DNA from: Desulfobulbaceae bacterium
Lineage (GTDB): Bacteria > Desulfobacterota > Desulfobulbia > Desulfobulbales > Desulfocapsaceae
Reading direction: 5' to 3'
Assembly: GCA_024636345.1 (NCBI GenBank)
Contig: JAGXHG010000031.1
Coordinates: 120,806 to 184,805 of the forward strand
DNA: 64,000 nucleotides
Shown piece after piece: positions 25,188-44,806 of the stretch. A program made the position numbers and the translations under genes. Every line of letters starts with the position of its first letter. Positions within the stretch are counted from its first letter, which is position 1. Under the pieces are notes generated by a model, which worked only from the letters and a program-made list of their open reading frames with translations, was not told where the DNA came from and did not search any database.

Positions 25188-25222
25188 TTGACTTTCTCTG
25201 AAAGAGCGCTAAGACTAGCGAA
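25188..25222 (+). promoter_or_regulatory. Promoter-like element with internal inverted repeat, copy 1
   Basis: TTGACT (25188-25193), 16 bases, then TAAGAC (25210-25215) resembles a sigma-70 promoter. Overlapping the -10 region is the inverted repeat CGCTA-AGAC-TAGCG (25207-25220). Nearly the same 33-base sequence recurs at 34555 ahead of sulP, with 28 of 33 positions the same by eye. The start of the carbonic anhydrase-like gene is about 245 bases downstream. Confidence 0.6.
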
Positions 25223-25467
25223 CAAAATTTGAGGCAATAAATAAAAAAAAACAACTCTAACCATCTTGATGGTCATCCTTAAAACTTTTAATGTAATCCT
25301 CTGCCGTCGCCCCAGTTTAACTGGAGAGGAAAGATGCAACAGACTGAAATATAAAGACAATACCATGAACTGAATCACAACATGGCCAAAACGACCATGG
25401 ATGGAATTTCAAAATAATTTTTTGTGGCAATTGGTTCTCATTAATAAAAAATGCCAAGGATAAAAAA

Positions 25468-26649
25468 ATGCCAAACAGATATCAAAAAACAAGTATTATT
25501 CGCAAATTAGCCCCATTCAAAATTGATGGCCACGCCATTTCCTATGCAGAGTTTGCCCCCAAACTTTATAATCTCTGCATGACGCTCGGTTTTCGCAAAG
25601 GTCTGATTATGCCGTCCCGAGCCTTCTGCTCCGACGAGAATCAGGGCTGGCCCATTATCTTACTGACCAAACATTTCGGAACCTTTCCCTTTAATCATGG
25701 CAGGGTTGGCGGCATTGTCGCCATTGATCGCCATGGGCCCCATGCCCATCATGGTGAAGATTCGGTGCTTGTTCAGGCCAGTCACGTTGGCTACGACCCC
25801 CACACCGGAGCCTATGGCAAATGTACCCGCCCCAAAATGGCGGGTACTTGCATCTCTGATTCCTGCGGGAAAATAACCCATGTTATTACTCCCTATCTTG
25901 AGCAATACCAATTTGCCAAAGAGAGGATCTTTCTTCACCTGGACGATAAGGGCACTCATTTCATTACCGTGAAGAACTCCTTTATTGACTTTGATTCACA
26001 CCCTGTCAAAAATGGCCTGGTACTTCACTTGGAAAGTATTGTCAAAACCAATGAAAACGGCAAGATCCTGCCCGTCACTGCTATCAGCACCAGCCAGACC
26101 TATAAGGTTTCTGAAGAATTCCGCAAGCGTATTGATGCTACTGGCTATGTCTGGAAAACCGGAGAAGGCGAGAGCATCGGTAAGTACCTGTTCGAAGACC
26201 TTTTTTATTTCCGGGAAGATCTTCACGAGACAGACGAATCGATCCTCCTGGAACGGAACCTCATTGAATTCATGCCGCTTATTGTCACCTCGCGCAATCC
26301 TCCGTTGCGGGCAGCCAAGATCAATATTCAGCTGGAATTTGCCCGCACCGTGGAATCCATCCGGCGTGGTTCGGAATATGACGGCAAGAATCTCCTCTAT
26401 GTTGCCGGCTTGAATATTGATATTTCCGAATATGAGGGCTATCCGGCCACCACCTATTTTGTGCCCTGGGCCGCCCATATCCAGCTCAAGGACGGAACAC
26501 CTGAAGAATACAGCAAGCCCCTGGAGCAAGATGCGATCTACACATTTTTGATGGAACAGGACAGCATCAACTCGGAACAGGCGGACTTGAAAGAGGAAAT
26601 CGGCAGAATGCTGGCGGCACCCCGGTTTGATATCACCTCTCCTCAATAA
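25468..26649 (+). CDS. LCIB-type (beta-like) carbonic anhydrase-like protein
   Basis: The protein has 393 aa with no signal peptide. Residues about 40-145 have the layout of the LCIB/theta carbonic anhydrase family: Cys54 in FCSDE with Asp56 two residues on, GRVGGIVAID, a His-rich HAHHGED loop, His106 in ASHVGYD, YGK, and Cys133 in DSCGK. Cys-His-Cys plus an Asp close to the first Cys is the zinc site known in LCIB proteins. The remaining 250 residues are not recognised. If the call is right it would interconvert CO2 and bicarbonate. AAGGA lies seven bases before the ATG. It stands at the head of the Ehr-SulP-Ehr locus and shares a promoter-like element with sulP. The family assignment is from memory of motifs and is moderately sure. 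Confidence 0.55.
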   Translation: MPNRYQKTSIIRKLAPFKIDGHAISYAEFAPKLYNLCMTLGFRKGLIMPSRAFCSDENQGWPIILLTKHFGTFPFNHGRVGGIVAIDRHGPHAHHGEDSVLVQASHVGYDPHTGAYGKCTRPKMAGTCISDSCGKITHVITPYLEQYQFAKERIFLHLDDKGTHFITVKNSFIDFDSHPVKNGLVLHLESIVKTNENGKILPVTAISTSQTYKVSEEFRKRIDATGYVWKTGEGESIGKYLFEDLFYFREDLHETDESILLERNLIEFMPLIVTSRNPPLRAAKINIQLEFARTVESIRRGSEYDGKNLLYVAGLNIDISEYEGYPATTYFVPWAAHIQLKDGTPEEYSKPLEQDAIYTFLMEQDSINSEQADLKEEIGRMLAAPRFDITSPQ

Positions 26650-26668
26650 CTTCCCTCAAAGAGGGAAG
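26650..26668 (+). terminator. Short hairpin after the carbonic anhydrase-like gene
   Basis: CTTCCCTC-AAA-GAGGGAAG is a perfect 8-bp stem with a short T-stretch (AGTTTA) beyond it. It starts one base after the stop codon and is probably a weak terminator or attenuator before the membrane-complex genes. The rest of the gap to 26920 shows no clear gene. Confidence 0.5.
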
Positions 26669-26919
26669 AGTTTAATGGCCGCTGCTTGGCCCAGAAAATA
26701 TTTTCACGCCCTGCCCCATTTTCGCGCAAACTGTGCCCTCATTGTGACACCTGTTTAAAATACCGAAAAGAAGAGCATTCATACGGGACGAGAAGGCCTG
26801 CCCCAAAGGGACATGGCCAAGGCAATCTACTGCGCGTTGCCACCATGACAGATAAAAAAAGACATTACATACGATCGTTGCGTGTAATGACAGCGTATAA
26901 AAAATTTGGAGGGAAATAA

Positions 26920-28878
26920 ATGGACACCATGTTTGTGTCGCTTGCTGTAATCCTGGCAGGAGGAGTTGCTGCACTCCTCTTATGCCGGCAGTTTACCTTG
27001 ATGAAATTGGTAACTATTGCCACGACAACTGCAGGTTGTGGAGTTGGCCTTTTTTACAGCCTCTCAAATCTTCTGAGCCACGCAGCACCAATTGAAATGA
27101 GCTGGAGCTGGCTCCACCTTTTCTCCCTTGCCTTTAAGGTGGACAGCATATCCCTCTTTTTCCTGGTACCGATATTCACCATAACCCCGATGGCGCTGTT
27201 GTACAGCTTCCATTACATGGGTGATAAGGCCAAGGCAACCAGAACGGCCATCAACTATTTCTTTTTCACGATTCTGGTGGCCTCCATGGCCCTGGTTGTT
27301 ACGGCGGCAAACATCATTACCTTTGCCCTGGCATGGGAGATCATGTCCCTCTCCTCCTTCTTTCTGGTGATCTTTGACTATCAGGTCAAGGCGAACCGCC
27401 AGGCAGGCTATATCTATTTTATCTTTGCCCAAGGCGGGGCCATGTTCCTCTTTGCCGCCTTTGCCCTTCTTTACCAACACACGGGTAGTTTTGACTTCTC
27501 AACTTTCTCCACTATTCCGGAAAATGTTAAGCTCCTGGTTTTCATCCTGGCCTTTCTCTGTTTTGGCTCAAAAGCGGGTATCTTTCCCCTCCATCTGGCG
27601 AAAATTCAATCTGGTCCGGCCGCTCCGAGTCATATTGCCGCAATTATGTCTGCAGTCATGAGCAAGATGGGTATCTACGCAATTTTTCGGATGTACCTGC
27701 TGCTTGATGCCACAACGCCATTCATCGGCCAGATCGTTCTGGTGACCGGTATTGGTACCGGTGTCCTGGGTGTTGTCTATGCCCTGGCCAAACAAGACCT
27801 CAAGGTACTTCTCGCTTATAGTAGTGTGGAGAATATCGGCATCATCCTCATTGGCTTGGGGATCGGTATGGTCGGCGTCTCCGAACAGAGTCAGGCAATG
27901 GCCTTCTTCGGTTTTGCCGGGGCCTTTATGCATGTCTTTAACCACTCCATATTTAAATCGCTGCTCTTCATGGGAGCAGGTGCAGTATCTCGCAAGGCCA
28001 AGACCACCAATATTGACCAGCTGGGTGGCCTGATGAAACGGATGCCCATCACCGGCAGAACCTTCTTGGCCGGTTCTGTTGCCATCTCCGGCCTGCCGCC
28101 ATTCAGCGGTTTTATCGGTGAATTTTTGATCTATTACGGGGCCTTCTACGGTATCAGCAATCATCGTCTTCCTTTTATTCTGGCAATTCTGGCCATTGTC
28201 TCCCTGGCAGTTATAGGTGGCCTGGCTGCGGCTTGCTTTACCAAGGTGGTTGGTCTGGGATTTTTGGGGGAACCACGCACCGAGAATGCTGCCAAGGCAA
28301 CCGAGACAGGATCCTCCATGACTCTGATCATGGTCGTCTTGGCCATTGCCAGCCTGGTGATCGGCATCCTCCCGGAGCCCTTTATCAGGCTCGCCTTTGC
28401 CGGCATCAACGATGTTCCTTATACCGTCGGCTTTGATACTCTGGCCTTTATGGGAATTGTTCGTCAAGTATCGCAGACGGTTGCCATCTTCATAGGCCTT
28501 TTGCTGCTTATCACCCTTTTGCGCAAGATCCTCTACCTGAAGAAAGAAATCGGCAGCGGCGGCACCTGGGGCTGCGGCTTTACCCAGCCCACGGTCCGCA
28601 TGCAGTACACCGGCACCTCTTATGCCGCAGAAATGATCGATTTTTATCGGCCCTTTGTACCGGTAAAAAAGATCTATACGGGTATCTCTAAAATCTTCCC
28701 CGGCAAGACCACCTGGGAGACAGAGGTGGAAGATGTGGCGGAACTAAACTACCAGCTGCGCCTGATCCAGCCGCTACTCAAATTCCTGAATAAGCTGCGA
28801 TGGATCCAACATGGGAAGATCCAGCTCTATATTGCTTATATTGTTCTGGCCATTATCGTCCTGCTCCTCCTTTTATAA
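26920..28878 (+). CDS. hyfB: HyfB-like antiporter-type membrane subunit, Ehr module A
   Basis: Large proton-conducting subunit of the NuoL/MrpA/HyfB family (652 aa, about 15-16 membrane helices). It carries the family core with antiporter-like Lys and His residues (FNHSIFKSLLFMGAG, AYSSVENIGIILIG, GSKAGIFPLHLAKI). The C-terminal HyfB/HycC-specific part contains GTWGCGF and VRMQYTGTSYAAE, and a long lateral region ends in a final helix. It would translocate H+ or Na+ when the peripheral arm passes electrons. GGAGG lies upstream of the ATG. It is first in module A, followed after a hairpin by the HyfC-like gene. Confidence 0.9.
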   Translation: MDTMFVSLAVILAGGVAALLLCRQFTLMKLVTIATTTAGCGVGLFYSLSNLLSHAAPIEMSWSWLHLFSLAFKVDSISLFFLVPIFTITPMALLYSFHYMGDKAKATRTAINYFFFTILVASMALVVTAANIITFALAWEIMSLSSFFLVIFDYQVKANRQAGYIYFIFAQGGAMFLFAAFALLYQHTGSFDFSTFSTIPENVKLLVFILAFLCFGSKAGIFPLHLAKIQSGPAAPSHIAAIMSAVMSKMGIYAIFRMYLLLDATTPFIGQIVLVTGIGTGVLGVVYALAKQDLKVLLAYSSVENIGIILIGLGIGMVGVSEQSQAMAFFGFAGAFMHVFNHSIFKSLLFMGAGAVSRKAKTTNIDQLGGLMKRMPITGRTFLAGSVAISGLPPFSGFIGEFLIYYGAFYGISNHRLPFILAILAIVSLAVIGGLAAACFTKVVGLGFLGEPRTENAAKATETGSSMTLIMVVLAIASLVIGILPEPFIRLAFAGINDVPYTVGFDTLAFMGIVRQVSQTVAIFIGLLLLITLLRKILYLKKEIGSGGTWGCGFTQPTVRMQYTGTSYAAEMIDFYRPFVPVKKIYTGISKIFPGKTTWETEVEDVAELNYQLRLIQPLLKFLNKLRWIQHGKIQLYIAYIVLAIIVLLLLL

Positions 28879-28929
28879 TAAGCGGAGATTATTCATGGTT
28901 GATGTTTGGCAACTGACGTAAAAAAATAA

Positions 28930-28993: not shown

Positions 28994-29911
28994 ATGGAAT
29001 CCATATTCTCGTTTTGTTTTGCAATCCTGATAACGCCCCTTCTACCGGCGCTCATCAAGAAGGTAAAGGCCTGTTATGCGGGCCAGCAGGGTCCACCGCT
29101 GCTGATCAACTACTACACCATGGCTAAACTCTTTAAAAAGGGTTCGGTCTACAGCACCAGCACCACTTTTGTCTTTAGGATGGGACCGGTGGTGGGCTGT
29201 GCCACCAGCCTGATGATGCTGCTTTTCTTTCCCATGGCCGGCATAGCTCCCCTCTTCTCTTTTCATGGAGATGTGCTGATTCTTTTTTATCTCATGGGAC
29301 TGGGTCGTTTTTTTACCATTCTGGCCGCACTCGACACCGCATCACCCTTTGAGGGCATGGGGGCTGCCCGGGAGGCTTTTTTCTCCACCCTGGCAGAAGC
29401 CACCGTCTTTGGCATCCTCGTCCTCTTCTTCCGGATCACCGGATCCTTGAGCTTTGCCGAATTCTTTTCCGGCAGCCACCCCATCAGCCTCACAGGTGAA
29501 CACGGGGCGCTGCTGATCCTGGTCATCGTGGCCCTGTACATCGTCATGCTCACCGAGAACTCGCGGGTGCCGGTGGATGACCCGGCCACCCATCTTGAGC
29601 TCACTATGATCCATGAGGTTATGATTCTTGATCACAGCGGTCCGGATCTGGCTTTAATCGAGCTGGGCGCCTGGTTTAAACTTCTTTTTTACGCGGGCTT
29701 CCTGGCCAGGATTATAGACCCATTCCAACTGCAAAACGTCTGGCTCAACGGTCTGCTCTTTTATGCAGTTGTCACCTTTATCTACATAACCATCGGCACG
29801 GTGGAGTCTATTACCGCCAGATATAAGATGAATATGGTGCCGAAATTCATTCTGACCCCCTTTATTCTGGTCTTTTTCGCCACCATCCTCACCATGGAGC
29901 TGATCAAATGA
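28994..29911 (+). CDS. hyfC: HyfC-like (NuoH-type) membrane subunit, Ehr module A
   Basis: Integral membrane subunit of the NuoH/HyfC/EchB family (305 aa, about eight helices) that docks the soluble redox arm on the membrane arm. Conserved features include a cytoplasmic loop with GPPLLINYYTMAKLFKKG, DTASPFEGMGAAREAFFS, ENSRVPVDDPATHLELTMIH and the Asp/Glu-rich helix borders typical of the family. GAGGT precedes the ATG. The stop overlaps the HyfE-like start by 4 bp. The module B paralogue is at 37272. Confidence 0.92.
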   Translation: MESIFSFCFAILITPLLPALIKKVKACYAGQQGPPLLINYYTMAKLFKKGSVYSTSTTFVFRMGPVVGCATSLMMLLFFPMAGIAPLFSFHGDVLILFYLMGLGRFFTILAALDTASPFEGMGAAREAFFSTLAEATVFGILVLFFRITGSLSFAEFFSGSHPISLTGEHGALLILVIVALYIVMLTENSRVPVDDPATHLELTMIHEVMILDHSGPDLALIELGAWFKLLFYAGFLARIIDPFQLQNVWLNGLLFYAVVTFIYITIGTVESITARYKMNMVPKFILTPFILVFFATILTMELIK

Positions 29912-30567
29912 GTGCTTTTTCAGATGCCCTGCTGGCCTTTACCCTTCTGTCAGTGTTAATGTCACTGGCTGCGCACCGCCTCGTGGCCCTGGTCAAGATT
30001 ATGGCCTTTCAAGGCATTGTGGTGTCGCTCATTCCCCTTTTCCTTGAACACTCTCATACCCTGACCATGGGCTCCATTCTCATGCTGCAGGTCATGATTC
30101 TCATTAAAGGATTCTTTATCCCCGGCTTTATCTATGTGGCAGTGAGAAAGATCAAAATAAGGCGCGAGATTGAGCCCATTGTCGGCTACCATGCCTCACT
30201 CTTTGCCGGCCTGCTCTTTATCCTGATTTCCGCCTTTATTGCCGATCGGATCTATGCATCCCAATCTCTTCCCGGGGAGTATGTGCTGCTGATGATTACT
30301 GCCATCACTACCCTGGCCTCCGGGCTTTTTCTGCTCATGAGCCGTCATAAGGCCATTACCCAGGTTATTGGCTATTTGATGATGGAAAACGGCATCTACC
30401 TCTTCGGTACCGCCCTGGCCAAGCAGACCCACACCCAGTATCTAGTTGAGTTCGGAGTCTTACTCGATCTCCTCGTTGGTATCATGATCATGGGTATTGT
30501 GCTCAATAATATCAACAGCTCCTTTGACGATGTCGATACCGCCCTCCTTGGGCAATTAAAGGATTAG
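29908..30567 (+). CDS. hyfE: HyfE-like membrane subunit (NuoK-related), Ehr module A
   Basis: Six- to seven-helix membrane protein (219 aa) of the HyfE family, whose core is related to NuoK/MrpC. Motifs include ILIKGFFIPGFIYVAVRKI, REIEPIVGYHAS, QVIGYLMMENGIYLFG and EFGVLLDLLVGIMIMGIV, with acidic residues inside helices as in NuoK. It is translationally coupled to the HyfC-like gene. A 226-base gap with a palindromic repeat separates it from the HyfF-like gene. Confidence 0.9.
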   Translation: MSAFSDALLAFTLLSVLMSLAAHRLVALVKIMAFQGIVVSLIPLFLEHSHTLTMGSILMLQVMILIKGFFIPGFIYVAVRKIKIRREIEPIVGYHASLFAGLLFILISAFIADRIYASQSLPGEYVLLMITAITTLASGLFLLMSRHKAITQVIGYLMMENGIYLFGTALAKQTHTQYLVEFGVLLDLLVGIMIMGIVLNNINSSFDDVDTALLGQLKD

Positions 30568-30793: not shown

Positions 30794-32221
30794 ATGTTAG
30801 AATTTACCTGCCTCATCCCTCTGTTTACCGGGATTATCGCCATGTTCCTGCCAGTCAAGTTTGGCCGGGGAATCCTGGTGGTGACAGCCTTGCTTCACCT
30901 GCAGATAACGATCATGGCCTGGCTGGGCAAGATAACGCCGGGTCTGCCCCAATATTTTTCCGCCTCTCCAGAGGGGCTGCTGGTGCTGCTGGTCGCCTCG
31001 TTTATTTTTCTCTTTATCTCGATTTATGCCGTGTCTTACATGAGCGTGACCGAGATAACGAGTGAGCCCATCTACATCGGCTGTACCCTGTTCTTCCTGT
31101 CCTCCATGTCCATGGTTGCCCTGGCCGACCACCTGATTGTACTGTGGATCGCCATTGAGGCCACTACGCTGATGAGTGCCCCCTTGATCTTCCTGCATCG
31201 CTCCAAGTCGGCCCTGGAGGCGACCTGGAAATATGTCATGATCTGTTCTGTGGGTATTGCCCTGGCCCTGCTTGGCTGTTTCTTCATCGTCCTGTCCATG
31301 GATATCGGCAATGTCCAGGTTGCGCTTACCTTCAGCTCGTTAGGAGCGGTGGCAACACAACTTGACCCTATGTGGCTGAAGGCCGGTTTTATCTTTCTGG
31401 TCATCGGTTATGGGACCAAGATGGGCCTGGCTCCCATGCATACCTGGCTGCCGGATGCCCATAGTGAGGCCCCAAGCCCGGCCTCGGCCCTGCTTTCAGG
31501 AGCCCTGCTCAACTGCGCCTTCCTCGGTGTCTATCGCAGTCATCGGCTCCTGTACCAAGCCGGCCTCGGTGATTTTTCCAGCAATATTCTTATCGGCCTT
31601 GGCCTGTTGTCCATGCTCATTGCCGCCATCTTCATTTTTAACCAGACCGGCTATAAGCGGATGCTGGCTTATTCAAGTATCGAGAATATGGGCATTATCG
31701 CCTTTGGTGTGGGGATCGGCGGCCTGGCTACCTATGGCGCCATGCTCCATCTCATCCACCACTCGCTGATTAAATCTTCTCTGTTTTTGTCCGCCGGTAA
31801 CATTTTGCTGGGCTACGGCAGCAAGCTGATCAGCAAGACAGGCAATATGGCCAAGGTCTTCCCCAAGACCTTCACCGCATTTTTTGCGGGATTTGCCGGA
31901 ATTTCAGGTTTCCCACCCTTTGGTATCTTTGTCAGTGAGCTGCTCATTATCATAGGGGCCTTTCAGAAGGGCAGGACTATCAGCGTCAGCATCTTTATCC
32001 TAGCCCTTATTTTAATCTTCGCCGGCGCCTCGCGTCTGGTAATGAAGATGAGCTTTGGTAAATGGGATGAAGAGATCCTGGTTGATGAAAATTGGGCCAG
32101 GGTTCTGCCCTCATACGCCCTGCTGCTCACCTCGGTAATTCTCTGTGTGTGGCTGCCGGACAGCCTGTATCAAACAATTCTTTCGGCAATTGCCACTATC
32201 GGAGGTAGCGTTAATGGATAA
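30794..32221 (+). CDS. hyfF: HyfF-like antiporter-type membrane subunit, Ehr module A
   Basis: NuoN/M-type proton channel subunit (475 aa, about 14 helices) of the HyfF family. Conserved pieces are LWIAIEATTLMSAPLIF, KMGLAPMHTWLPDAHSEAPS, YSSIENMGIIAFGVGIGG and IHHSLIKSSLFLSAGN. Lys and Glu residues lie at the positions used for proton transfer in complex I subunits. With the HyfB-like protein it gives the module two antiporter-type subunits. The stop overlaps the HyfG-like start by 8 bp. Confidence 0.91.
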   Translation: MLEFTCLIPLFTGIIAMFLPVKFGRGILVVTALLHLQITIMAWLGKITPGLPQYFSASPEGLLVLLVASFIFLFISIYAVSYMSVTEITSEPIYIGCTLFFLSSMSMVALADHLIVLWIAIEATTLMSAPLIFLHRSKSALEATWKYVMICSVGIALALLGCFFIVLSMDIGNVQVALTFSSLGAVATQLDPMWLKAGFIFLVIGYGTKMGLAPMHTWLPDAHSEAPSPASALLSGALLNCAFLGVYRSHRLLYQAGLGDFSSNILIGLGLLSMLIAAIFIFNQTGYKRMLAYSSIENMGIIAFGVGIGGLATYGAMLHLIHHSLIKSSLFLSAGNILLGYGSKLISKTGNMAKVFPKTFTAFFAGFAGISGFPPFGIFVSELLIIIGAFQKGRTISVSIFILALILIFAGASRLVMKMSFGKWDEEILVDENWARVLPSYALLLTSVILCVWLPDSLYQTILSAIATIGGSVNG

Positions 32222-33719
32222 GTTGCTACATATACAAAACAATGAAAAAGTAAACCGGGCCGATATCCCCAACCTGCCCTTTGACACCTTTCGCCGGCAA
32301 CTTCTCGAGTGTGCAGCGGCAGGAGGAAAGGTAGTACAATTTTTCGCCTATGAGGACCAGGGTGTCAGCAAGCTGCTGGCTGTCATGCGCACCGATAAAC
32401 TTTACGTCGGTGGCTGTGACGCCCCTGATTCCTTTGCCTCCCTGACTGTGGAATCGGAAATATTCCACATGTTTGAGCGGGAGATCGGCGAGCAGTATGG
32501 CCTCAAGGCAGAAGGACACCCCTGGTTGAAGATGGTACGTTACCATGCCAACTACAACGGTAAAAAGGATGTCTTTGACAATAACTACAAGCAGGAGATT
32601 CCAGGCAACTACCCCTACTTCACCGTCGAGGGCGAAACCGTCCATGAGGTTGCGGTGGGACCGGTTCATGCCGGAATTATCGAGCCCGGTCATTTCCGCT
32701 TCCAATGTTGTGGCGAGCGCGTTTTTCACCTGGAGATCCAGCTCGGCTATCAGCACCGTGGAGTCGAGAAACTTCTGCAAAGCGTTCCCATGAAGCGAAT
32801 GCCCATTATTGCCGAAACCATTGCCGGCGATACCACCATCGGCCACGGCCTCTGTCAGGCCCAAGCCATCGAAGCACTGGCAGGCCTGCAAGTGGATGAA
32901 GGTGCCAAGATAGTGCGCACCATCGCTCTCGAGCTTGAACGCATTGCCAATCATATCGGTGACCTGGGTGCCCTTAGCCTTGATGTGGCCTTTAATCCGC
33001 CTGCTGCCTATTTCGGCCGGATCCGGGGCGAATATCTCAACTTGACCCAGATCTTGGGTGGCAACCGTTTTGGACGCGGCCTGGTAAGAGCGGGTGGGGT
33101 TACCCATGTTATGGGAGACGAACAGAAAAAATTGCTGCGCGACAAGCTGGTTGAGCTTACCCCCGAGGTAGAGCATGTCAATCATCTGATCTTTTCCGCC
33201 CCCAGTGTTACGGGCCGTTTTGACAATACCGGCAAGGTGAGCCGCGAGAATGCGGAAAAAATAGGTCTGGTCGGTTACGCCGGCCGCGCCTCCGGCCTGA
33301 ACTATGATGCCAGGGTCAGCTTCCCGACGGAATGTTATGGTGAACTTCCAGCCAACAGCAACAGCCGAACCGATGGCGATGTCTGCTCACGAGGCTTGGT
33401 GCGGCGGGAGGAGATCATGCATTCCACCCGCCTGATTAATACCCTGCTGGACAAAAAAGAAGAGGCCAAACCCTACACGCCTCAGGAGATTCAACTGGCC
33501 CCTCAGTCCTTTGTAGTCAGCATCAACGAAGCTTGGCGGGGAGAGATTTCTCACTGCATTTTGACCGATGACAAGGGAGGAATCTTGCGCTACAAGGTGA
33601 AAGATCCTTCTTTTCACAACTGGACTGGTCTGGCCTTGTCTCTGCGCGATGAAGGGATTTCCGATTTCCCTTTGTGCAATAAGAGCTTCAATCTTTCCTA
33701 CTGCGGATTTGATCTGTAA
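32214..33719 (+). CDS. hyfG: HyfG-like (NuoC-NuoD fusion) large subunit without NiFe ligands, Ehr module A
   Basis: 501-aa soluble subunit with an N-terminal NuoC/HycE-type 30-kDa domain (about 1-120) and a hydrogenase large-subunit/NuoD fold (about 145-501; VHAGIIEPGHFRF, LGYQHRGVEKL, LELERIANHIGDLGALS). In NiFe hydrogenases the first cysteine pair is in RxCGxC; here residues 201-212 read ETIAGDTTIGHG with no Cys. The C-terminal DPCxxC is replaced by DPSFHNW (464-470). A NiFe centre therefore cannot form in the normal way. The protein belongs to the energy-converting hydrogenase-related (Ehr) class. GGAGG precedes the ATG at 32214. The electron acceptor is unknown. Confidence 0.9.
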   Translation: MDKLLHIQNNEKVNRADIPNLPFDTFRRQLLECAAAGGKVVQFFAYEDQGVSKLLAVMRTDKLYVGGCDAPDSFASLTVESEIFHMFEREIGEQYGLKAEGHPWLKMVRYHANYNGKKDVFDNNYKQEIPGNYPYFTVEGETVHEVAVGPVHAGIIEPGHFRFQCCGERVFHLEIQLGYQHRGVEKLLQSVPMKRMPIIAETIAGDTTIGHGLCQAQAIEALAGLQVDEGAKIVRTIALELERIANHIGDLGALSLDVAFNPPAAYFGRIRGEYLNLTQILGGNRFGRGLVRAGGVTHVMGDEQKKLLRDKLVELTPEVEHVNHLIFSAPSVTGRFDNTGKVSRENAEKIGLVGYAGRASGLNYDARVSFPTECYGELPANSNSRTDGDVCSRGLVRREEIMHSTRLINTLLDKKEEAKPYTPQEIQLAPQSFVVSINEAWRGEISHCILTDDKGGILRYKVKDPSFHNWTGLALSLRDEGISDFPLCNKSFNLSYCGFDL

Positions 33720-33756: not shown

Positions 33757-34500
33757 ATGTTACAAGTAATAAAAAACAGATTAGAACAAGGGCACCGGAC
33801 CTCTAAATACCCCAAAGAGCCGATCAACCTCTACAAGAGATTTCGCGGTCTGCCCAAGGTAGATCCGAAATGTGATGGAGACCTGCTACAACGCTGCGCT
33901 GACGCTTGTCCCCAGAACGCCATTGATGCCAAAAACTGCCGGATTGATCTGGGCCGATGTGTTTTCTGCGGCCTCTGTGAAACTCTGTCCGGCGGCAGAT
34001 TTGCAACCTTCACCCAGAATTGTGAAATGGGAACCGCCAGTCGTGATGATCTCTTTACCACGGGTGACCTGCCCGCCCTGGCTGAACATTCCAAAAAGCA
34101 TTTTAAGAAACTCTTTGGCCGATCCCTGCAGCTCCGCCAGATATCAGCAGGAGGTTGTAATGCCTGCGAGGCCGACACCAATGTATTGAATACCCCCTTC
34201 TGGGATCTCTCCCGCTTCGGAATTCAATTTGTCGCCTCACCTCGGCATGCTGACGGCATCCACGTCACCGGTCCTCTTACAAAAAATATGCGGGCCGCGA
34301 CCATCACCACCTTTGAGGCCATTCCACACCCCAAAGTCGTGATCGCCAGTGGTGCCTGCGCTATTTCCGGCGGCCCTTTTTTCGGCAGTGATGAAATCCT
34401 TGGCGACCTCAACAGCATCATCCCTGTTGATCTTTATATCCCCGGGTGTCCTCCACATCCGCTAACCACCCTGCACGCCTTATTGAGTTATTTTAAGTAG
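33757..34500 (+). CDS. hyfI: HyfI-like (NuoB-type) small subunit with fused ferredoxin region, Ehr module A
   Basis: 247-aa iron-sulfur subunit. The C-terminal NuoB/HyfI domain keeps four cysteines for the proximal [4Fe-4S] cluster (Cys134, Cys137, Cys201 and Cys231, in GGCNACEAD, SGACAISGG and IPGCPP). The N-terminal ferredoxin-like region has Cys39, Cys47, Cys51, Cys61, Cys68, Cys71 and Cys74. One complete cluster set can be drawn (68, 71, 74 and 51), but the second seems incomplete, unlike the module B paralogue. The fused domain replaces the separate HyfH/NuoI protein. It ends module A; the sulP promoter-like element follows about 55 bases later. Confidence 0.9.
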   Translation: MLQVIKNRLEQGHRTSKYPKEPINLYKRFRGLPKVDPKCDGDLLQRCADACPQNAIDAKNCRIDLGRCVFCGLCETLSGGRFATFTQNCEMGTASRDDLFTTGDLPALAEHSKKHFKKLFGRSLQLRQISAGGCNACEADTNVLNTPFWDLSRFGIQFVASPRHADGIHVTGPLTKNMRAATITTFEAIPHPKVVIASGACAISGGPFFGSDEILGDLNSIIPVDLYIPGCPPHPLTTLHALLSYFK

Positions 34501-36869: not shown

Positions 36870-36921
36870 GCTTAATAAAAAGCCGGGTGTCCCTTTGAGG
36901 ATGTCTGACTTTTTATTAAGC
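36870..36921 (+). terminator. Long hairpin after sulP
   Basis: GCTTAATAAAAAG (36870-36882) and CTTTTTATTAAGC (36909-36921) are exact complements, with partial pairing continuing inward. The right arm includes five T. It begins 17 bases after the sulP stop and probably ends that transcript, in either direction. Confidence 0.6.
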
Positions 36922-38196: not shown

Positions 38197-38835
38197 ATGA
38201 ATAATACTGCCAACCTTCTGTTGTTACTGGTCGTCATGCTCAACTTCTTTATTTTGGGCAGCAGCCGCCTGGGGTCGAATATCCGCACAATTGCCATTCA
38301 GGGTGGGATGATTTCCCTGTTGCCTGTTCTCGCTCACGGATTTTCCAACCATACCATCTTTCTGGCAGTCGCGGCCTTTCTGCTCAAGGGAATTGCCATC
38401 CCGTACCTGCTTTTCAGGGCCGTCCGTCAGGTTCATATCGGCCGGGAGATCGAGCCTTTGTTCGGCTATGTGCCAACCCTTATTCTTGGTACCCTGGCCA
38501 CCGCCGCTTCCTTTATCTTCAGCGACCGGTTGCCGCTGATTGCCGAACACAGCCAGACACTTTTCGTCCCGGTAGGTCTTGCCACCCTGGCCACCGGCTT
38601 TCTTCTGCTCATTACCCGACGTAAGGCCATTAATCAGGTCATTGGCTACCTGATCTTTGAAAATGGTATCTTCATCTTCGGTATGCTGTTGACTGAAGCC
38701 ATGCCCCTCATGGTGGAGTCAGGCGTCCTGCTCGATCTGCTGGTTGCAGTCTTTATTATGGTTATTGTCATGCATCAGATCAAACGCGAATTTTCCACTA
38801 TCAATATTGACCAGCTGACGTCATTAAAAGAATAA
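38197..38835 (+). CDS. hyfE: HyfE-like membrane subunit (NuoK-related), Ehr module B
   Basis: 212-aa membrane protein parallel to the module A copy at 29908: FLLKGIAIPYLLFRAV, REIEPLFGYVPT, QVIGYLIFENGIFIFG and ESGVLLDLLVAVFIMVIV. AAGGT lies six bases before the ATG. As in module A, the link to the HyfF-like gene is interrupted, here by 169 bases holding a degenerate repeat. Confidence 0.9.
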   Translation: MNNTANLLLLLVVMLNFFILGSSRLGSNIRTIAIQGGMISLLPVLAHGFSNHTIFLAVAAFLLKGIAIPYLLFRAVRQVHIGREIEPLFGYVPTLILGTLATAASFIFSDRLPLIAEHSQTLFVPVGLATLATGFLLLITRRKAINQVIGYLIFENGIFIFGMLLTEAMPLMVESGVLLDLLVAVFIMVIVMHQIKREFSTINIDQLTSLKE

Positions 38836-38857
38836 TAACATCTCACAAAATCCATTA

Positions 38858-39004: not shown

Positions 39005-40450
39005 ATGGAAAATAATCTTATCACACTCCTGTTACTTATTCCTTTCAGCGGAGTCTTACTCGCTTTGGTTCTACCTTCAAATCGTTTCAGGCCGTGGCTG
39101 TTGCCCATAGTCAGCATGATGCATCTGGCACTGACCTTCCTTATCATCCAGGCCGGACCACTGTCGGCAGCCAATGGCTGGCTGGGCGTTGATGCCCTCA
39201 GCCGTCTCATCCTGCTGATTATCAGTCTGCTCTTCTGCGGCTGTTCATTTTACGCCTTGGGCTATCTTCGTTACCGTCTTTCCTGGGGAAACAGGGTCTT
39301 TGTAAGCTGCCTCCTCCTCTTTCTCTTCGCCATGAGCCTTGCGACCATATCGCGTCATCTAGGTATCCTCTGGGTGGCAGTAGAGACAACCACCCTCGCC
39401 AGCGCCCCGCTTATCTATTTTAACCGTAATCGTCTCTCCATCGAGGCAACCTGGAAATATCTGCTCCTCAGTTCGGTTGGCATTGCCCTTGCCATGCTTG
39501 GTATTCTCTTTATCGCCTATGCCGGTTTGACTGAAGGCGGACACGTCAGCCTGCAATTTGACGACATCCTGCAAGGTGCCGCCAGCTTTTCCCGACCATG
39601 GCTCAGAGCCGGCTTTGTCTTTCTCCTTGTGGGCTTTGGCACCAAGGTAGGTTTTGCCCCACTGCACACCTGGAAGCCAGATGCTTATGGCGAGGCACCC
39701 GGTGTAGTTGGCGCGCTCCTGGCCGGTGGACTTACCAGTGTGGCCTTTCTTGCCCTCCTTCGGACCCTGCAGATTATGGATGCTGCCAGTGAAGCGGTCC
39801 TGGCCCGTGAGGCCTTCCTGGCCATGGGACTTATCTCAATGGCCTTTGCTGCTGTTTTTGTTGTCCGCCAGCCTGACTTTAAACGCATGCTTGCCTATTC
39901 CAGTGTTGAACATATGGGAATTATTGCCATCGGGGTCAGCATGGGCGGGATTGCCACCTATGGGGCCATGCTGCATCTGATGAATAATGCTATGACCAAG
40001 GGGGTTCTTTTCCTGTCGTCGGCCAATATTCATCGTCGTTTTGGTAGCAAACGGATGGATGAAGTCCGTGGAGCCATAACCCTGGTGCCTTTTTCCTCCA
40101 TTCTTTTTCTTTTAGGCTTTATTGCCATCACCGGTTCACCGCCGTTTGGCCCGTTTATCAGTGAATTTACTATCCTGCAGGGGGTTTTCAGCGGCGGTCA
40201 TTATGTTACCGGTGGACTTTTTCTTTTCTTCCTGGCGGTCATCTTCATCGGAATGGGCACGACAGTACTTTCAGTTGTCTTTGGTACTCCATCAGAGAAT
40301 GCAGGCGATAAGGATTATCGAGAGACCTTTGCCACTACCGGGATGCCATTGCTTATGCTGCTGATCATCTTTGTTCTGGGTGTCTATTTACCTGATTCAA
40401 TCCGCCAGATTTTTGTTGATGCGGCCGCATTACTTGAGGTGAGAGCATGA
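39005..40450 (+). CDS. hyfF: HyfF-like antiporter-type membrane subunit, Ehr module B
   Basis: 481-aa NuoN/M-type subunit, about 14 helices: LWVAVETTTLASAPLIY, KVGFAPLHTWKPDAYGEAPG, YSSVEHMGIIAIGVSMGG and MNNAMTKGVLFLSSAN. The last motif has the Lys of the antiporter family but MNN where module A has IHH. No clear ribosome site is seen before the ATG, perhaps because the upstream gap has been rearranged. The stop overlaps the HyfG-like start (ATGA). Confidence 0.9.
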   Translation: MENNLITLLLLIPFSGVLLALVLPSNRFRPWLLPIVSMMHLALTFLIIQAGPLSAANGWLGVDALSRLILLIISLLFCGCSFYALGYLRYRLSWGNRVFVSCLLLFLFAMSLATISRHLGILWVAVETTTLASAPLIYFNRNRLSIEATWKYLLLSSVGIALAMLGILFIAYAGLTEGGHVSLQFDDILQGAASFSRPWLRAGFVFLLVGFGTKVGFAPLHTWKPDAYGEAPGVVGALLAGGLTSVAFLALLRTLQIMDAASEAVLAREAFLAMGLISMAFAAVFVVRQPDFKRMLAYSSVEHMGIIAIGVSMGGIATYGAMLHLMNNAMTKGVLFLSSANIHRRFGSKRMDEVRGAITLVPFSSILFLLGFIAITGSPPFGPFISEFTILQGVFSGGHYVTGGLFLFFLAVIFIGMGTTVLSVVFGTPSENAGDKDYRETFATTGMPLLMLLIIFVLGVYLPDSIRQIFVDAAALLEVRA

Positions 40451-41982
40451 TGAAACAGAATATTGAGCCGCAACTCATGAAAAATGGTGGGACTGTTGAT
40501 CTAAGCCTGGTGGAATCACTCAGTTATGATGACTTCAGTCGCTGCCTGCTGACCGAAGTCGAAACAGGCGGCAGGGTGGCCGCATTTTTCGGTGTTCCAG
40601 GGGTAGGGAAGAACGATGATCTTGAGTTGTTCGCCCTCATTGCCAGGGATCGCCATGCGACAATTGCTGTGTACAGAACCGAGGTTGGGACCTCTTTCCC
40701 TTCCCTTACCACCAGTTGTCCGCAGCTCCATCTGTTTGAAAGAGAGATTGCGGAACAATACGGGGTCAGGCCAACAGACCATCCCTGGCTCAAGCCCGTA
40801 CGTTTTCACCGGGTCTGGCAAGGAAAAACCGATGTCTGGGGCCGCCCGCTGGACCAACATCCGCTGCCAGGTGATATGGAGTATTACCGGGTGGAGGGTG
40901 ATGGAGTACATGAAGTAGCTGTCGGCCCGGTTCATGCCGGAATCATCGAACCTGGTCATTTCCGTTTCCAGTGCTATGGGGAAAAGGTGATGCATCTTGA
41001 GATATCCCTTGGCTACCAGCACCGGGGTATTGAGCCGATGCTGCTCCAGGGTCCGCATTCCTCGACCATGGCCCAAATGGAAACCATTGCCGGTGATACC
41101 ACTATCGGTCATGGCCTTGCCTACTGTCAGGTTATTGAGGCCTTAAGCGGCTGCGAGGTTCCAGCCCGAGCCCAGTCCATCCGTGCCATGGGACTGGAAC
41201 TGGAACGACTGGCCAACCATGTGGGCGATATCGGGGCCCTGGCCGGTGATGTTGGTTTTCTACCCACCGCCTCCTTTTGCGGCCGCCTGCGCGGCGACTA
41301 TCTCAACCTGAGTGCGGCTTTGTGCGGCAGTCGGTTTGGACGAGGTCTGGTGCGCCCTGGCGGAGTTCTCTTCGACCTTGATGCAACGCTTGAAAGCGCA
41401 GTGCAAACCCGCATCGATGAGATTGAAAGTAATACTCTAGGCGCACTTAATCTTTTCTTTGATGCACCTTCGGTCTTGAGCCGTCTTGAAGGGTGTGGTC
41501 ACGTGTCCCTTTCGGTGGCTGAAGATCTTGGACTGCTGGGAGTAGCTGCCAAGGCCTGTGGTGTCCCTCGTGACAGTCGTTTTTTCCATCCCACCGGGAT
41601 ATATCGCAAGGTTTTTGACGAGCTGATAACAGAGGAAACGGGTGACGTCTGGGCCAGGGCCCATGTGCGGTACCGGGAGGTCATAGCATCCATCGACCTT
41701 CTCCGGAGAATCGGCAAGAATCTGCCGTCAGGTCCTGTCAAGGTACCAGTCGGGCCGCTTAAGGCCAATACCCTGGCTGTTTCTCTGGTGGAAGGCTGGC
41801 GGGGAGAGGTAGCTCATATTGGGATTACCGATGCCGATGGCCAGCTCCGGCGTTACAAAATAGTTGACCCCTCTTTTCATAATTGGAGTGGATTGGCCAT
41901 GGCACTGCGTGATGAACAGATCTCTGATTTTCCCCTGTGCAATAAAAGTTTTAGTTTATCTTACTGCGGCTATGATCTGTAA
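40447..41982 (+). CDS. hyfG: HyfG-like large subunit without NiFe ligands, Ehr module B
   Basis: 511-aa NuoC-NuoD type fusion, paralogous to the module A protein at 32214. The hydrogenase fold is plain (VHAGIIEPGHFRF, LGYQHRGIEPM, LELERLANHVGDIGALA). Both NiFe ligand pairs are missing: ETIAGDTTIGHG at 212-223 stands in place of RxCGxC, and DPSFHNW near the C-terminus in place of DPCxxC. The same replacements occur in module A, so the loss came before the duplication. The tail after DPSFHNW (DFPLCNKSFSLSYCGYDL) is also shared and carries two Cys, perhaps structural. It cannot work as a normal hydrogenase. Confidence 0.9.
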   Translation: MMKQNIEPQLMKNGGTVDLSLVESLSYDDFSRCLLTEVETGGRVAAFFGVPGVGKNDDLELFALIARDRHATIAVYRTEVGTSFPSLTTSCPQLHLFEREIAEQYGVRPTDHPWLKPVRFHRVWQGKTDVWGRPLDQHPLPGDMEYYRVEGDGVHEVAVGPVHAGIIEPGHFRFQCYGEKVMHLEISLGYQHRGIEPMLLQGPHSSTMAQMETIAGDTTIGHGLAYCQVIEALSGCEVPARAQSIRAMGLELERLANHVGDIGALAGDVGFLPTASFCGRLRGDYLNLSAALCGSRFGRGLVRPGGVLFDLDATLESAVQTRIDEIESNTLGALNLFFDAPSVLSRLEGCGHVSLSVAEDLGLLGVAAKACGVPRDSRFFHPTGIYRKVFDELITEETGDVWARAHVRYREVIASIDLLRRIGKNLPSGPVKVPVGPLKANTLAVSLVEGWRGEVAHIGITDADGQLRRYKIVDPSFHNWSGLAMALRDEQISDFPLCNKSFSLSYCGYDL

Positions 41983-42017
41983 TTGGGAAAAATGAGAGAA
42001 TACAAGGATAAAACAGT

Positions 42018-42779
42018 ATGTTAGATATAATCAGCGAGCGATTTCGTCAGGGATTCAGGACCGGGAAATTCCCCTTGGAGGAGCCCAAATTAGCTCCGCG
42101 CTTTCGGGGAATGCCGGAGTTTAGGGGAGAGTGTCCATCAGGATGTAAAGCCTGTGAGCAACTTTGCCCGTTTGGTGCTTGTGGAGTACGAGAAGGGAAA
42201 ATGGCCCTTGACCTGGGTCGTTGTTTATTCTGTGCCGACTGCCAAGCCTGCCCTGAGGATCGCATCAATTTTGGCAATGAGTACCGACTGGCAGTTAGGA
42301 ACCGTCAGGATCTCCTCTTCAGCGGCGAAGAATATCCTTTAGCCAAACCCCTTGAACCTGCCCGGCTCAAGCTCTTGGGTCGTTCACTCAAACTGCGCCA
42401 GATTTCCGCTGCCGGCTGCAATGCCTGTGAGGCCGATTGCAACGTCCTTGGGACTCTGGTCTTTGACCTTGGCCGTTTTGGTATCCAGTTTGTCGCTTCC
42501 CCCCGCCATGCGGATGGGATTCTAGTCACCGGACCGGTCTCTGAAAATATGCGCACCGCAGTGCTGGACACCTATGAAGCCGTTCCTGGACCCAAAGTCG
42601 TAATCGTTGTCGGGGCCTGCGCGATCAATGGTGGACCTTTTATCCACAGCAGCGAAACAAACCAGGGGCTGGATTCCCTGCTGCCCGTGGATCTCTATAT
42701 TCCAGGCTGTACGCCGCAGCCTTATACTATTCTTGATGGCCTTCTCCGTTTGCTTGGTAGAAGGGAACAAAGGGGTTAA
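42018..42779 (+). CDS. hyfI: HyfI-like small subunit with fused 2[4Fe-4S] ferredoxin domain, Ehr module B
   Basis: 253-aa protein. The N-terminal ferredoxin domain has two full cluster motifs, Cys39-43-46-50 and Cys69-72-75-78. The C-terminal NuoB/HyfI domain has the proximal cluster cysteines 134, 137, 201 and 231. Electrons could therefore run through three clusters toward the NiFe-less large subunit. The module A paralogue has lost part of the second ferredoxin motif. AAGGA lies upstream of the ATG. The HyfB-like gene follows after five bases. Confidence 0.91.
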   Translation: MLDIISERFRQGFRTGKFPLEEPKLAPRFRGMPEFRGECPSGCKACEQLCPFGACGVREGKMALDLGRCLFCADCQACPEDRINFGNEYRLAVRNRQDLLFSGEEYPLAKPLEPARLKLLGRSLKLRQISAAGCNACEADCNVLGTLVFDLGRFGIQFVASPRHADGILVTGPVSENMRTAVLDTYEAVPGPKVVIVVGACAINGGPFIHSSETNQGLDSLLPVDLYIPGCTPQPYTILDGLLRLLGRREQRG

Positions 42780-42784
42780 AGGAC

Positions 42785-44770
42785 ATGGCTGAAATCTTTT
42801 TTGCTGCAGTTATTCTGATATTCTGTTCCGGGCTGCCAGCCCTGGCGCGTGGACACTACGCCAGGCCGGGTGAAATACTCTCGGTCATCCTGTTGTTACT
42901 GGGAGTCTCTCTGGCCCTTTTCTCTTCTCTGGCCGGGGGCTGGCAGACGCCATCCCCCATGCTGACCATGGCTTGGGCACATCCAGGCGGCCCGTTTATC
43001 CTGGAACTGGACGGGCTTGCCTCTCTCTTCCAGCTGCCGGCCCTGGTCGTTCTGGGCATGGGAGGTATTTACGGTCTTGGTTACCTGCCCCAGGCTAAAG
43101 TAGGCGCGCTAGCAGGAAGACTGCGTGTTTTCTATGGCATATTGGGAGCCACCATTGTCTTCCTGCCCACCTGCCGCAATGGAATCGTCTTTCTGATGGC
43201 CTGGGAAATCATGGCCCTCAGCTGTTTTTTCCTCCTCCTTACTGAACAAAAGGAGAAGGAAACCCGCCGGGCCGCGTATGTCTATCTCGTGGCCACCCAT
43301 ATCGGGACCCTGGCTCTTTTTGGCATGTTCCTCCTGCTGGCGGGCAGCAGCGGTGGAAGCCTCAATTTTCCTCAGGCCGGAACCTTACAGGGCGCAACGC
43401 TTGAGGCCGGCGCGATCTTTTTGCTTGCCCTGTTTGGTTTTGGAATGAAGGCGGGGGTGATGCCTTTCCACTTCTGGTTACCAGCCGCTCATGCCCAAGC
43501 TCCCAGTCATGTCTCCGCCCTAATGAGCGGAGTCATGATCAAAATGGGGATTTACGGCATAGTACGCATTACCAGCTTTTATATCAGCGCGCCTGCCTGG
43601 TGGGGATGGACGATCCTGGTGCTGGGAGTCATTTCAGCCATCATGGGTGTGGCCTTTGCCCTGGCCCAGCACGATATCAAGCGCTTGCTTGCCTATCATA
43701 GCGTGGAGAATATCGGCATCATCCTTATCGGCCTCGGTTGTGCCCTGCTGGGGCAGAGCTACCATTACCCGTCTCTGGTTGCCTTGGGTCTGGCTGGGGC
43801 CCTGCTCCATGTGGTCAACCATGGCCTGTTCAAGTCCCTGCTCTTTCTCGGGGCTGGGTCTGTGATTCATGCCACCGGAACGAGAACCATCGACCATTAC
43901 GGCGGACTGCTTAAGACTATGCCGCGCACTGCCTTTTTCTTTCTGGGCGGGGCAGTGGCCATCTGCGGGCTGCCACCGTTCAACGGTTTTGTCAGTGAAT
44001 GGCTTATCTATCTCGGCCTGCTCCACAGTCAAACGGAGGGCGCAACGTTTCCGTTTTCTCTGATTGTGCTGGCTGTCCCCGCCCTGGCCATGACAGGAGC
44101 TTTGGCCCTTGCCTGTTTTGTTAAAGTCTTCGGCATCACTTTCCTGGGAACAGCACGCAAGGAGTTCCCGGTTGCGCCCCATGAAGCACCTGGCACTATG
44201 CTTCTGCCCATGGGAGTGCTTTTTCTCGGCTGTCTGACCATAGGTCTGATGCCATGGACCATTATTCCTCTGTTGCAACGGGGAATTAGTTCCTGGCTGG
44301 GAGTGGCCTCCGTTAGCACACCTTTGGTCTCTACCTTGGCACCGGCAACATGGATCAGCCTTGGTGCCGCTTTGTTAATAGGGCTTAGTGTGGCTGTCTG
44401 GCGCTGGCAAAAATCCTTTACTGAGGAAAGCTATCAACAACGTCCCACTACCTGGGGTTGTGGATATTTTAAGGGAACGGCCCGGATGCAATACACAGCG
44501 GTATCCTTTGCTGAACAGCTTGTCAACCTCTTCAGGTGGGGATTAAGAAGTGATGTTTCCGATGGACGAGCCATTGGTCTTTTTCCATCCGTGGCTCATT
44601 TTGCTGTCCATACCCCTGACGTTTTCCTTGATCGTCTGATTTATCCCACCTGTCATGGCTTGGTCAGGGCGGCCTTTGTTGTCCGCTCCTTTTTTCACCA
44701 GGGCTGGCTTAATGTTTATTTGCTTTATTCAGCTATTACCCTCTGCGTGTTGCTGATATGGATCATTTGA
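42785..44770 (+). CDS. hyfB: HyfB-like antiporter-type membrane subunit, Ehr module B
   Basis: 661-aa NuoL/HyfB-family proton channel subunit, about 15-16 helices: LMAWEIMALSCFFLL, KAGVMPFHFWLPAAHAQAPS, YHSVENIGIILIGLG and VNHGLFKSLLFLGAG. The HyfB-type C-terminal part includes TTWGCGYFKGTARMQYT. It is last in module B, whereas its paralogue is first in module A, so the two hyfB-like genes lie at the outer ends of the whole locus. A perfect 11-bp hairpin follows the gene. Confidence 0.9.
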   Translation: MAEIFFAAVILIFCSGLPALARGHYARPGEILSVILLLLGVSLALFSSLAGGWQTPSPMLTMAWAHPGGPFILELDGLASLFQLPALVVLGMGGIYGLGYLPQAKVGALAGRLRVFYGILGATIVFLPTCRNGIVFLMAWEIMALSCFFLLLTEQKEKETRRAAYVYLVATHIGTLALFGMFLLLAGSSGGSLNFPQAGTLQGATLEAGAIFLLALFGFGMKAGVMPFHFWLPAAHAQAPSHVSALMSGVMIKMGIYGIVRITSFYISAPAWWGWTILVLGVISAIMGVAFALAQHDIKRLLAYHSVENIGIILIGLGCALLGQSYHYPSLVALGLAGALLHVVNHGLFKSLLFLGAGSVIHATGTRTIDHYGGLLKTMPRTAFFFLGGAVAICGLPPFNGFVSEWLIYLGLLHSQTEGATFPFSLIVLAVPALAMTGALALACFVKVFGITFLGTARKEFPVAPHEAPGTMLLPMGVLFLGCLTIGLMPWTIIPLLQRGISSWLGVASVSTPLVSTLAPATWISLGAALLIGLSVAVWRWQKSFTEESYQQRPTTWGCGYFKGTARMQYTAVSFAEQLVNLFRWGLRSDVSDGRAIGLFPSVAHFAVHTPDVFLDRLIYPTCHGLVRAAFVVRSFFHQGWLNVYLLYSAITLCVLLIWII

Positions 44771-44775
44771 AAACT

Positions 44776-44806
44776 GGCTGATTAAGTATCATCTGCTTAA
44801 TCAGCC
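44776..44806 (+). terminator. Hairpin at the end of Ehr module B
   Basis: GGCTGATTAAG (44776-44786) and CTTAATCAGCC (44796-44806) are exact complements with a 9-base loop, five bases after the stop. The T-run is poor, but the position fits a terminator. Confidence 0.55.

Follow-up and report, generated by a model that had tools for sequence, protein, structure and literature searches.

The cyanobacterial NDH-1MS complex has been described as coupling the oxidation of ferredoxin to the hydration of CO2 through a relative of complex I, and the idea of a vectorial carbonic anhydrase is stated for both NDH-1MS and DAB2 in PMC13144422. Since PMC10096703 holds that the activity of CupA/B and LCIB/LCIC still needs confirmation, the parallel with NDH-1MS itself rests on a hypothesis. 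The Ehr complexes are relatives of group 4 hydrogenases without Ni/Fe-coordinating residues, the function of which is called uncertain in PMC6349859. In the present study, we analyzed a stretch of 64,000 nucleotides from a Desulfobulbaceae bacterium (hereafter the window; contig JAGXHG010000031.1, positions 120,806 to 184,805), which is part of a 2.96 Mb draft genome that is 83% complete. The window contains 14 genes, all on the plus strand from 25468 to 44770, that encode an LCIB-like protein, a hydrogenase-4-type complex without NiFe ligands (module 1, Ehr1), a SulP-family transporter, and a second complex of this type (module 2, Ehr2). This locus is real and unusual. We consider, with a probability of approximately 0.5, that the LCIB-like gene, Ehr1, and, less often, SulP constitute a cluster for the supply of inorganic carbon, in which the LCIB-type protein hydrates CO2 at Ehr1 and SulP imports bicarbonate.

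Among the described systems, NDH-1MS and NDH-1MS' (CupA/CupB), in which a complex-I relative is tied to a CO2-hydrating partner, are the nearest working parallel; however, the partner in the window is a predicted LCIB-type beta-carbonic anhydrase fold, and the membrane part belongs to the hydrogenase-4/Ehr type, its large subunit, G1, being NiFe-less and showing no quinone-site Tyr when aligned. The Pfam matches of the 14 products, a comparison that included no Cup model, contained no Cup family. Like the locus, DAB2 (DabAB) pairs a NuoL-like membrane subunit with a protein that resembles carbonic anhydrases, and its hydration of CO2 is energy-coupled and one-way according to PMC13144422; the same source has DAB2 working without electron transfer, whereas Ehr1 keeps iron-sulfur-type cysteines. 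Moreover, the DabA partner (PF10070) was not found in the window's genome, nor in 241 of the 242 genomes examined from the class, while 2 of 14 control genomes were positive. As a separate observation, DabA (PF10070, 6.9e-230) is the fourth open reading frame (ORF) downstream of LCIB on a gammaproteobacterial contig (L072:3563-12743), where it follows three NuoL/HyfB-like ORFs.

Algal LCIB/LCIC and the diatom PtLCIB4 resemble the window protein in its predicted fold, and the invariant Cys, Asp, His, and Cys of the window protein would fit a beta-carbonic anhydrase site; the algal and diatom proteins are, however, chains of 198-248 residues against 393 aa and are 10-17% identical to it in structural alignments; the bacterial protein is, furthermore, tied to an Ehr operon. 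Ehr1 agrees with the Ehr complexes of PMC6349859 in being a group 4 hydrogenase relative without Ni/Fe-coordinating residues, whereas the partner proposed in that paper is a formate dehydrogenase, and carbonic anhydrases and SulP are what recur in the present loci. BicA and other carbonic anhydrase-linked SulP bicarbonate transporters share the SulP and STAS domains, and a beta-carbonic anhydrase gene adjoins this SulP in relatives; the window SulP differs in an insert of approximately 133 residues, a C-terminal CxxCPL, and a score under the BicA cut-off. In the open-licence papers searched, we found no connection of an Ehr complex with LCIB or with any carbonic anhydrase.

The LCIB-like protein and the Ehr1 complex

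The LCIB-like gene (25468..26649, plus strand) encodes a protein of 393 aa that is predicted to be a beta-type carbonic anhydrase. The assignment to LCIB rests on fold prediction because the protein scores 18.6 bits against PF18599, below the Pfam cut-off of 25, and the fold comparison is also the sole tie of the window protein to LCIB, since sequence searches of the PDB with the protein or its profile (E up to 10, or up to 1) gave no match. The structure model (predicted local distance difference test score, 84.3) matched LCIB-family structures, as the original prediction had expected; a classical beta-carbonic anhydrase chain was absent from the fold matches listed, which carries no weight as an absence. 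Conservation was assessed in an alignment (A1) of 44 rows chosen from 120 listed homologues, out of 2454 matched, and from 80 loci. PF18599 matches all 44 members at E <= 0.1 (best 1.9e-8) and is annotated in the database for 10 of the 120 listed homologues. The residues C54, D56, H106, and C133 are invariant in the 44 rows, and this set would fit the site of a beta-carbonic anhydrase. Degenerate LCIB relatives without the putative active site remain at the head of Ehr1 (12 of 13 rows were analyzed, the fragment G197:C58 being left out), and their retention there supports a putative physical tie between LCIB and Ehr1.

Ehr1 has a subunit set of the hydrogenase-4/complex-I type, including the antiporter-like subunits, in the order B-C-E-F-G-I; gene names such as HycE and HyfB are used here in their customary sense. 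All six genes lie on the plus strand. B1 (26920..28878) is a HyfB/NuoL-like antiporter-type membrane subunit (PF00361, 1.7e-48) that aligns with 7z0s_C and 6cfw_H, C1 (28994..29911) is HyfC/NuoH-like (PF00146, 5.1e-25), E1 (29908..30567) is HyfE/NuoK-like (NF008556, 3.4e-19, with 69.6 bits below the cut-off of 136), and F1 (30794..32221) is a HyfF/NuoN-like antiporter-type subunit (PF00361, 3.6e-48). G1, the HyfG/NuoD-like large subunit (32214..33719; PF00346, 1.2e-31), has a likely ATG start at 32214 in an ORF that is open from a GTG at 32145, and I1 (33757..34500) joins a HyfH-like ferredoxin-type part to a HyfI/NuoB-like small subunit (PF01058, 2.4e-24; aligned to 7z0s_G, with a match to 7z0s_F).

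The best alignments of G1 were obtained with the large subunits of formate hydrogenlyase (FHL), membrane-bound hydrogenase (MBH), and the NuoD type (7z0s_E, 6cfw_L, and 2fug_4). Both N-terminal NiFe-ligand cysteines are gone, VCGIC of the FHL large subunit being aligned with IAGDT, the residues of which are conserved in 43 (I), 45 (A), 46 (G), 46 (D), and 46 (T) of 46 aligned rows. One C-terminal cysteine, C520, is kept in 46/46 rows and appears by eye to be out of register with what we take to be the C-terminal cysteine pair of hydrogenases. G2 also carries IAGDT, and the loss of NiFe ligands postulated in the original prediction was borne out. In I1, the small-subunit cysteines C134, C137, C201, and C231 and the ferredoxin-type cysteines C51, C68, C71, and C74 are present in 41/41 rows, while E140, K218, K249, and K346 of B1, which are kept in 47/47 rows, correspond by alignment to charged sites of MBH and Mrp subunits and are presumably residues of an ion path. 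Judged from these alignments, the coupling machinery of Ehr1 looks intact and the hydrogenase site is gone. In two loci, a cytidylate-kinase-like gene (PF13189) directly follows Ehr1 (L098:3925-4764 and L107:3629-4468).

Recurrence of the LCIB, Ehr1, SulP, and beta-carbonic anhydrase genes

A lack of co-occurrence in other genomes would have spoken against the original prediction, but the LCIB-like gene and the NiFe-less large subunit do occur together. Among the 242 genomes of the class, 60 possess a full-length LCIB-like gene, 91 a G1-type large subunit (counted at >= 55% identity), and 48 both (Fisher p = 1e-14, phylogeny ignored); the 91 were taken from 123 genomes with G1-type matches, those of 44-52% identity, which are module-2-like, being left out. 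In 34 of the 48 genomes, LCIB and G1 lie within 12 kb on the same strand, with LCIB first in 30 and the module first in 4, and in the remaining 14 the two are on different contigs, no contig holding both of them apart; some of these cases, such as L132, are real separations. LCIB loci were counted in 59 of the Desulfobulbia type and 18 of the gammaproteobacterial type, out of 80 (L009, L079, and L081 gave no LCIB ORF), and among the former B1 is downstream of LCIB in 31 and I1 is upstream in 3. A tree built from 55 large subunits requires 6 changes of the LCIB-adjacent label, so that losses or regains of the partnership must have happened several times; in this tree, L009 is wrongly labeled as having none, and L114 has the same label through a contig end. 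The closest relatives of the LCIB-like gene are from Desulfocapsaceae, Desulfoarculaceae, and Desulfobulbaceae records. The hosts of the recurring cluster are bacteria related to Desulfobulbus and Desulfocapsa, and like clusters are also present in the cable bacterium Candidatus Electrothrix gigas and in Desulfoprunum benzoelyticum DSM 28570 and Desulfofustis glycolicus DSM 9705, in which its role can therefore be tested.

The SulP gene (34705..36852, plus strand; ORF open from a TTG at 34687) encodes a SulP-family anion transporter (PF00916, 2.4e-101) with a STAS domain (PF01740, 2.5e-16), and its score of 435.5 bits against the general SulP model TIGR00815 is above the cut-off of 380.45. The PF00916 match is in two pieces, positions 1-219 and 218-378, around the insert of ~133 residues, and the protein reaches 148.6 bits against the BicA equivalog NF050096, far under the cut-off of 880. 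A C-terminal G-C-x-x-C-P-L after the STAS domain is near-invariant in this long SulP (Cys in 120/120 and 119/120 listed homologues) and is possibly a redox or metal switch. The gene is preceded by a sigma-70-like site, such sites being no more common than in shuffled sequences, and is followed by a terminator-like hairpin (36884..36907, plus strand) that may separate module 2; this is a weak feature, with 34 such sites against 23.5 expected in shuffles.

In the genome comparison, for which 88 of 124 SulP genomes were taken (rows of 53-60% identity and fragments being left out), a long SulP was found no more than 12 kb from LCIB in 14 genomes and no more than 12 kb from G1 in 15; together these are 18 genomes, among which its position and orientation vary. 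In L100 and L101, it immediately precedes B1 and there is no LCIB; in L131 and L132, it adjoins LCIB with no Ehr1 in view. A classical beta-carbonic anhydrase of 196 aa directly follows I1 in L018, L026, L126, and the cut-off locus L114 (PF00484, 1.5e-37 for the copy in L018), the first three having the order LCIB-Ehr1-beta-carbonic anhydrase, and a PF00484 gene is located within 330 bp of the long SulP on the same strand in at least 12 genomes; in L134, a beta-carbonic anhydrase is paired with SulP with no Ehr1 in view. The neighborhood counts for PF00484, 12 and 5, are lower bounds, since they come from 48 of the listed beta-carbonic anhydrase rows, themselves part of the matches, and from portions of the lists for SulP and G1, the entries being chosen by eye. 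This mixed pairing of LCIB, Ehr1, SulP, and beta-carbonic anhydrase is the best evidence for a common role in inorganic carbon. The link between the first three and inorganic carbon that the original prediction had suggested is thus upheld by adjacency in two gene orders and by beta-carbonic anhydrase genes both in the clusters and beside SulP; it is well supported by comparison, and we regard it as highly probable.

A strong type of beta-carbonic anhydrase (E < 1e-50) was found in 9 of the 60 LCIB genomes and in 61 of the 182 others (p = 0.005), and in the window's genus it was present in 6/6 LCIB-negative and 1/9 LCIB-positive genomes. The window's genome has one beta-carbonic anhydrase (1.1e-39), which is on another contig.

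Interpretation and competing explanations

In the proposed mechanism, CO2 would diffuse into the cell and be hydrated to bicarbonate by an LCIB-type protein bound to the cytoplasmic arm of Ehr1, a complex which would render the hydration one-way by electron flow or an ion gradient; SulP would add imported bicarbonate, its likely cargo, and a soluble beta-carbonic anhydrase, where present, would return CO2 to CO2-using enzymes. The genes and their neighborhoods were directly established and the fold was predicted, whereas each of these working steps is inferred, as are ion pumping by Ehr1, ferredoxin as its donor, and bicarbonate as the cargo of SulP. The coupling of CO2 hydration to Ehr1 is accordingly put forward as a tentative mechanism, at somewhat less than even odds. 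More doubtful is an extension of it, in which Ehr1 and LCIB form a third energy-coupled (vectorial) carbonic anhydrase besides NDH-1MS and DAB, independently evolved and in anaerobic bacteria, with electrons that pass through I1 and the vacant NiFe pocket of G1 driving one-way hydration and with the active-site-less LCIB proteins being relics or regulators.

A number of findings weigh against the supply of inorganic carbon through CO2 hydration at Ehr1. All of the association P values and counts are uncorrected for phylogeny. In 36 of the 91 G1 genomes, LCIB relatives are absent altogether, and 12 of the 60 LCIB genomes have no G1 match at >= 55% identity; a missing G1 match can reflect a contig end, as for genome G126, in which L123 shows a degenerate LCIB with B1 and C1 only. 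Moreover, Ehr1 is out of view in 25 of the 59 Desulfobulbia-type loci, of which seven extend for more than 9 kb on both sides, and neither B nor F subunits reaching 35% identity were found in any of the 18 gammaproteobacterial-type loci counted. PF00484 genes overall show no clear trend (34/60 LCIB genomes versus 124/182, p = 0.12). By conservation, C54, H106, and C133, with D56, are candidates for a Cys-His-Cys zinc site, and the active-site-less copies argue that LCIB catalysis is not always what the cluster needs. Regarding electron transfer, two of the eight ferredoxin-type cysteines of I2 are missing by eye in I1, so that the input chain probably lacks one of its clusters. The Tyr missing from G1 by the Nqo4 alignment is the one that we take to be important for the quinone site of NuoD/Nqo4; with neither this Tyr nor NiFe ligands, G1 shows no electron acceptor.

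The charged residues conserved in B1 (E140, K218, K249, and K346 in 47/47) would also suit an Ehr1 that only makes a Na+ or H+ gradient for bicarbonate import by SulP, with LCIB and beta-carbonic anhydrase free in the cytoplasm and uncoupled. The SulP genes directly before B1 without LCIB (L100 and L101), as well as the beta-carbonic anhydrase-SulP pair (L134) and the LCIB-SulP pairs (L131 and L132) without Ehr1 in view, point in this direction, whereas LCIB adjoins Ehr1 in 34 genomes and SulP is near Ehr1 in 15, and the active-site-less LCIB relatives at the head of Ehr1 suggest a subunit rather than a free enzyme; we consider such an uncoupled arrangement to be rather unlikely. An improbable account is that Ehr1 serves Wood-Ljungdahl autotrophs as a redox enzyme, producing or consuming low-potential ferredoxin for the reduction of CO2, with adjacent carbonic anhydrases that feed CO2 by working in the direction of bicarbonate dehydration. 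LCIB does accompany the acetyl-CoA synthase marker CdhC (56/60 LCIB genomes versus 126/182 others), and the window's genome has CdhC together with a RuBisCO family match of 22.1 bits, below the cut-off of 30.1; however, Ehr1 itself does not track CdhC (72/91 genomes versus 110/151, p = 0.29), no carbon monoxide dehydrogenase or formate dehydrogenase was found among the Ehr1-flanking genes that were domain-scanned, which were some of them only, the molybdopterin oxidoreductase upstream (20184-23033) has its highest scores, all below the cut-offs, with thiosulfate/polysulfide reductase and not with formate dehydrogenase, and SulP beside the cluster favors transport.

The locus might also be a loose neighborhood under shared regulation, in which SulP imports sulfate for sulfur metabolism, LCIB acts as a general carbonic anhydrase, and Ehr1 conserves energy as an unrelated complex. 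The scores of SulP as a general family member (435.5 bits with TIGR00815, BicA 148.6 versus 880), its adjacency in only 18 genomes, and the sigma-70-like site and hairpin around it, the former no more common than in shuffles, are consistent with this, which is nevertheless made very improbable by the two LCIB-Ehr1 gene orders, the several orientations of SulP, and the occurrence of beta-carbonic anhydrase both after Ehr1 and beside SulP.

Ehr complexes have no settled function according to PMC6349859, and the partnership with LCIB-type and classical beta-carbonic anhydrases and SulP offers a testable one, the supply of inorganic carbon. The vectorial carbonic anhydrase, if true, would give Ehr complexes of this type a defined role for the first time and would suggest that a complex-I relative coupled to CO2 hydration arose more than once. 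The setting is that of bacteria mostly with the Wood-Ljungdahl marker CdhC (56 of 60 LCIB genomes) and with no DabA in 241/242.

Module 2 and flanking genes

All of the genes in the 14-gene plus-strand locus of the original prediction are present, although its start at 25188 was 280 bp too early, the LCIB-like ORF starting at 25468. The inclusion of both Ehr complexes in one system was not supported: of the four genomes with two matches, only that of the window and that of its closest relative, L141, have module 2 next to module 1, and in the other two they are on different contigs (G037) or ~68 kb apart (G139). Module 2 has the order C-E-F-G-I-B and is 36-51% identical to Ehr1 subunit by subunit. 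It consists of the probable bystanders C2 (37272..38192; HyfC-like, PF00146, 6.1e-35), E2 (38197..38835; HyfE-like, PF00420, 2.6e-5, with 24.3 bits below the cut-off of 26.1), F2 (39005..40450; HyfF-like, PF00361, 7.7e-50), G2 (40447..41982; NiFe-less and HyfG-like, PF00346, 4.5e-33, 47% identical to G1), I2 (42018..42779; a HyfH-HyfI fusion, PF01058, 6.4e-26, with eight N-terminal cysteines in a two-cluster pattern by eye), and B2 (42785..44770; HyfB-like, PF00361, 6.8e-55), all on the plus strand. ORFs of the G2 type with approximately 890 aa occur at L111:7475-10141 and L139:1494-4175, a length that would fit a fusion of F with G or a single frame running through both.

In L109, L025, L111, L136, L137, L138, and L140, C2 is preceded by a gene for a helix-turn-helix (HTH)-EIIA protein, or one of like size, and then by a second HyfB-like gene; the fusion of HTH_17 with PTS_EIIA_2 (PTS, phosphotransferase system) was domain-scanned only for L109 and L025, and L139 has the second HyfB-like gene and no such regulator. 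Neither gene was found in the window's genome, an empty result that shows little at 83% completeness, and SulP occupies their place in the window. The module-2-type clusters are a separate Ehr type, the regulator of which hints at a PTS-like phosphorylation input. Module 2 was rejected as part of the system in the main reading on the basis of its rare adjacency and of homologues elsewhere with a regulator and an additional subunit that were not found in the window's genome, and it is probably a neighbor; against this rejection, LCIB stands beside a module-2-like cluster in L025, and a beta-carbonic anhydrase is divergent to one in L136.

Upstream of the LCIB-like gene, the molybdopterin oxidoreductase gene at 20184-23033 encodes an N-terminally fused TorD-like chaperone part (PF02613; NF003442, 89.7 bits, under the cut-off of 132), and relatives of this oxidoreductase are found upstream of LCIB in L005 and L020. 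Its NCBIfam score was higher for the thiosulfate reductase PhsA (306.5 bits, cut-off 694) than for formate dehydrogenase alpha (245.7 bits, cut-off 666), and its best PDB match was the thiosulfate reductase 2vpw, followed by a formate dehydrogenase. A role as the formate dehydrogenase partner of Ehr is, thus, not favored, with thiosulfate/polysulfide reductase being nearer at scores that are all below the cut-offs.

A GAF-GAF-PAS-HisKA sensor-like protein is encoded at 23102..24760 (plus strand) and ends at HisKA, no ATPase domain being found in the domain scan; a sensor gene of the same type, most commonly of 552 aa, is upstream of LCIB in 7 of the 80 loci. The scan also revealed an NtrC-type regulator and a PAS histidine kinase upstream in the window, and the gene clusters c6 (19/80 loci) and c7 (17/80) were taken as their kin by size and place. 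A sigma-54 promoter before LCIB was rejected, as a consensus scan of 300 bp upstream gave scores similar to those of shuffles in nearly all loci. Rfam at gathering scores returned a single tRNA and nothing else. Two adjacent minus-strand genes at 4654-6362 of the window encode MinD/ParA-type ATPases with 4Fe-4S ferredoxin domains.

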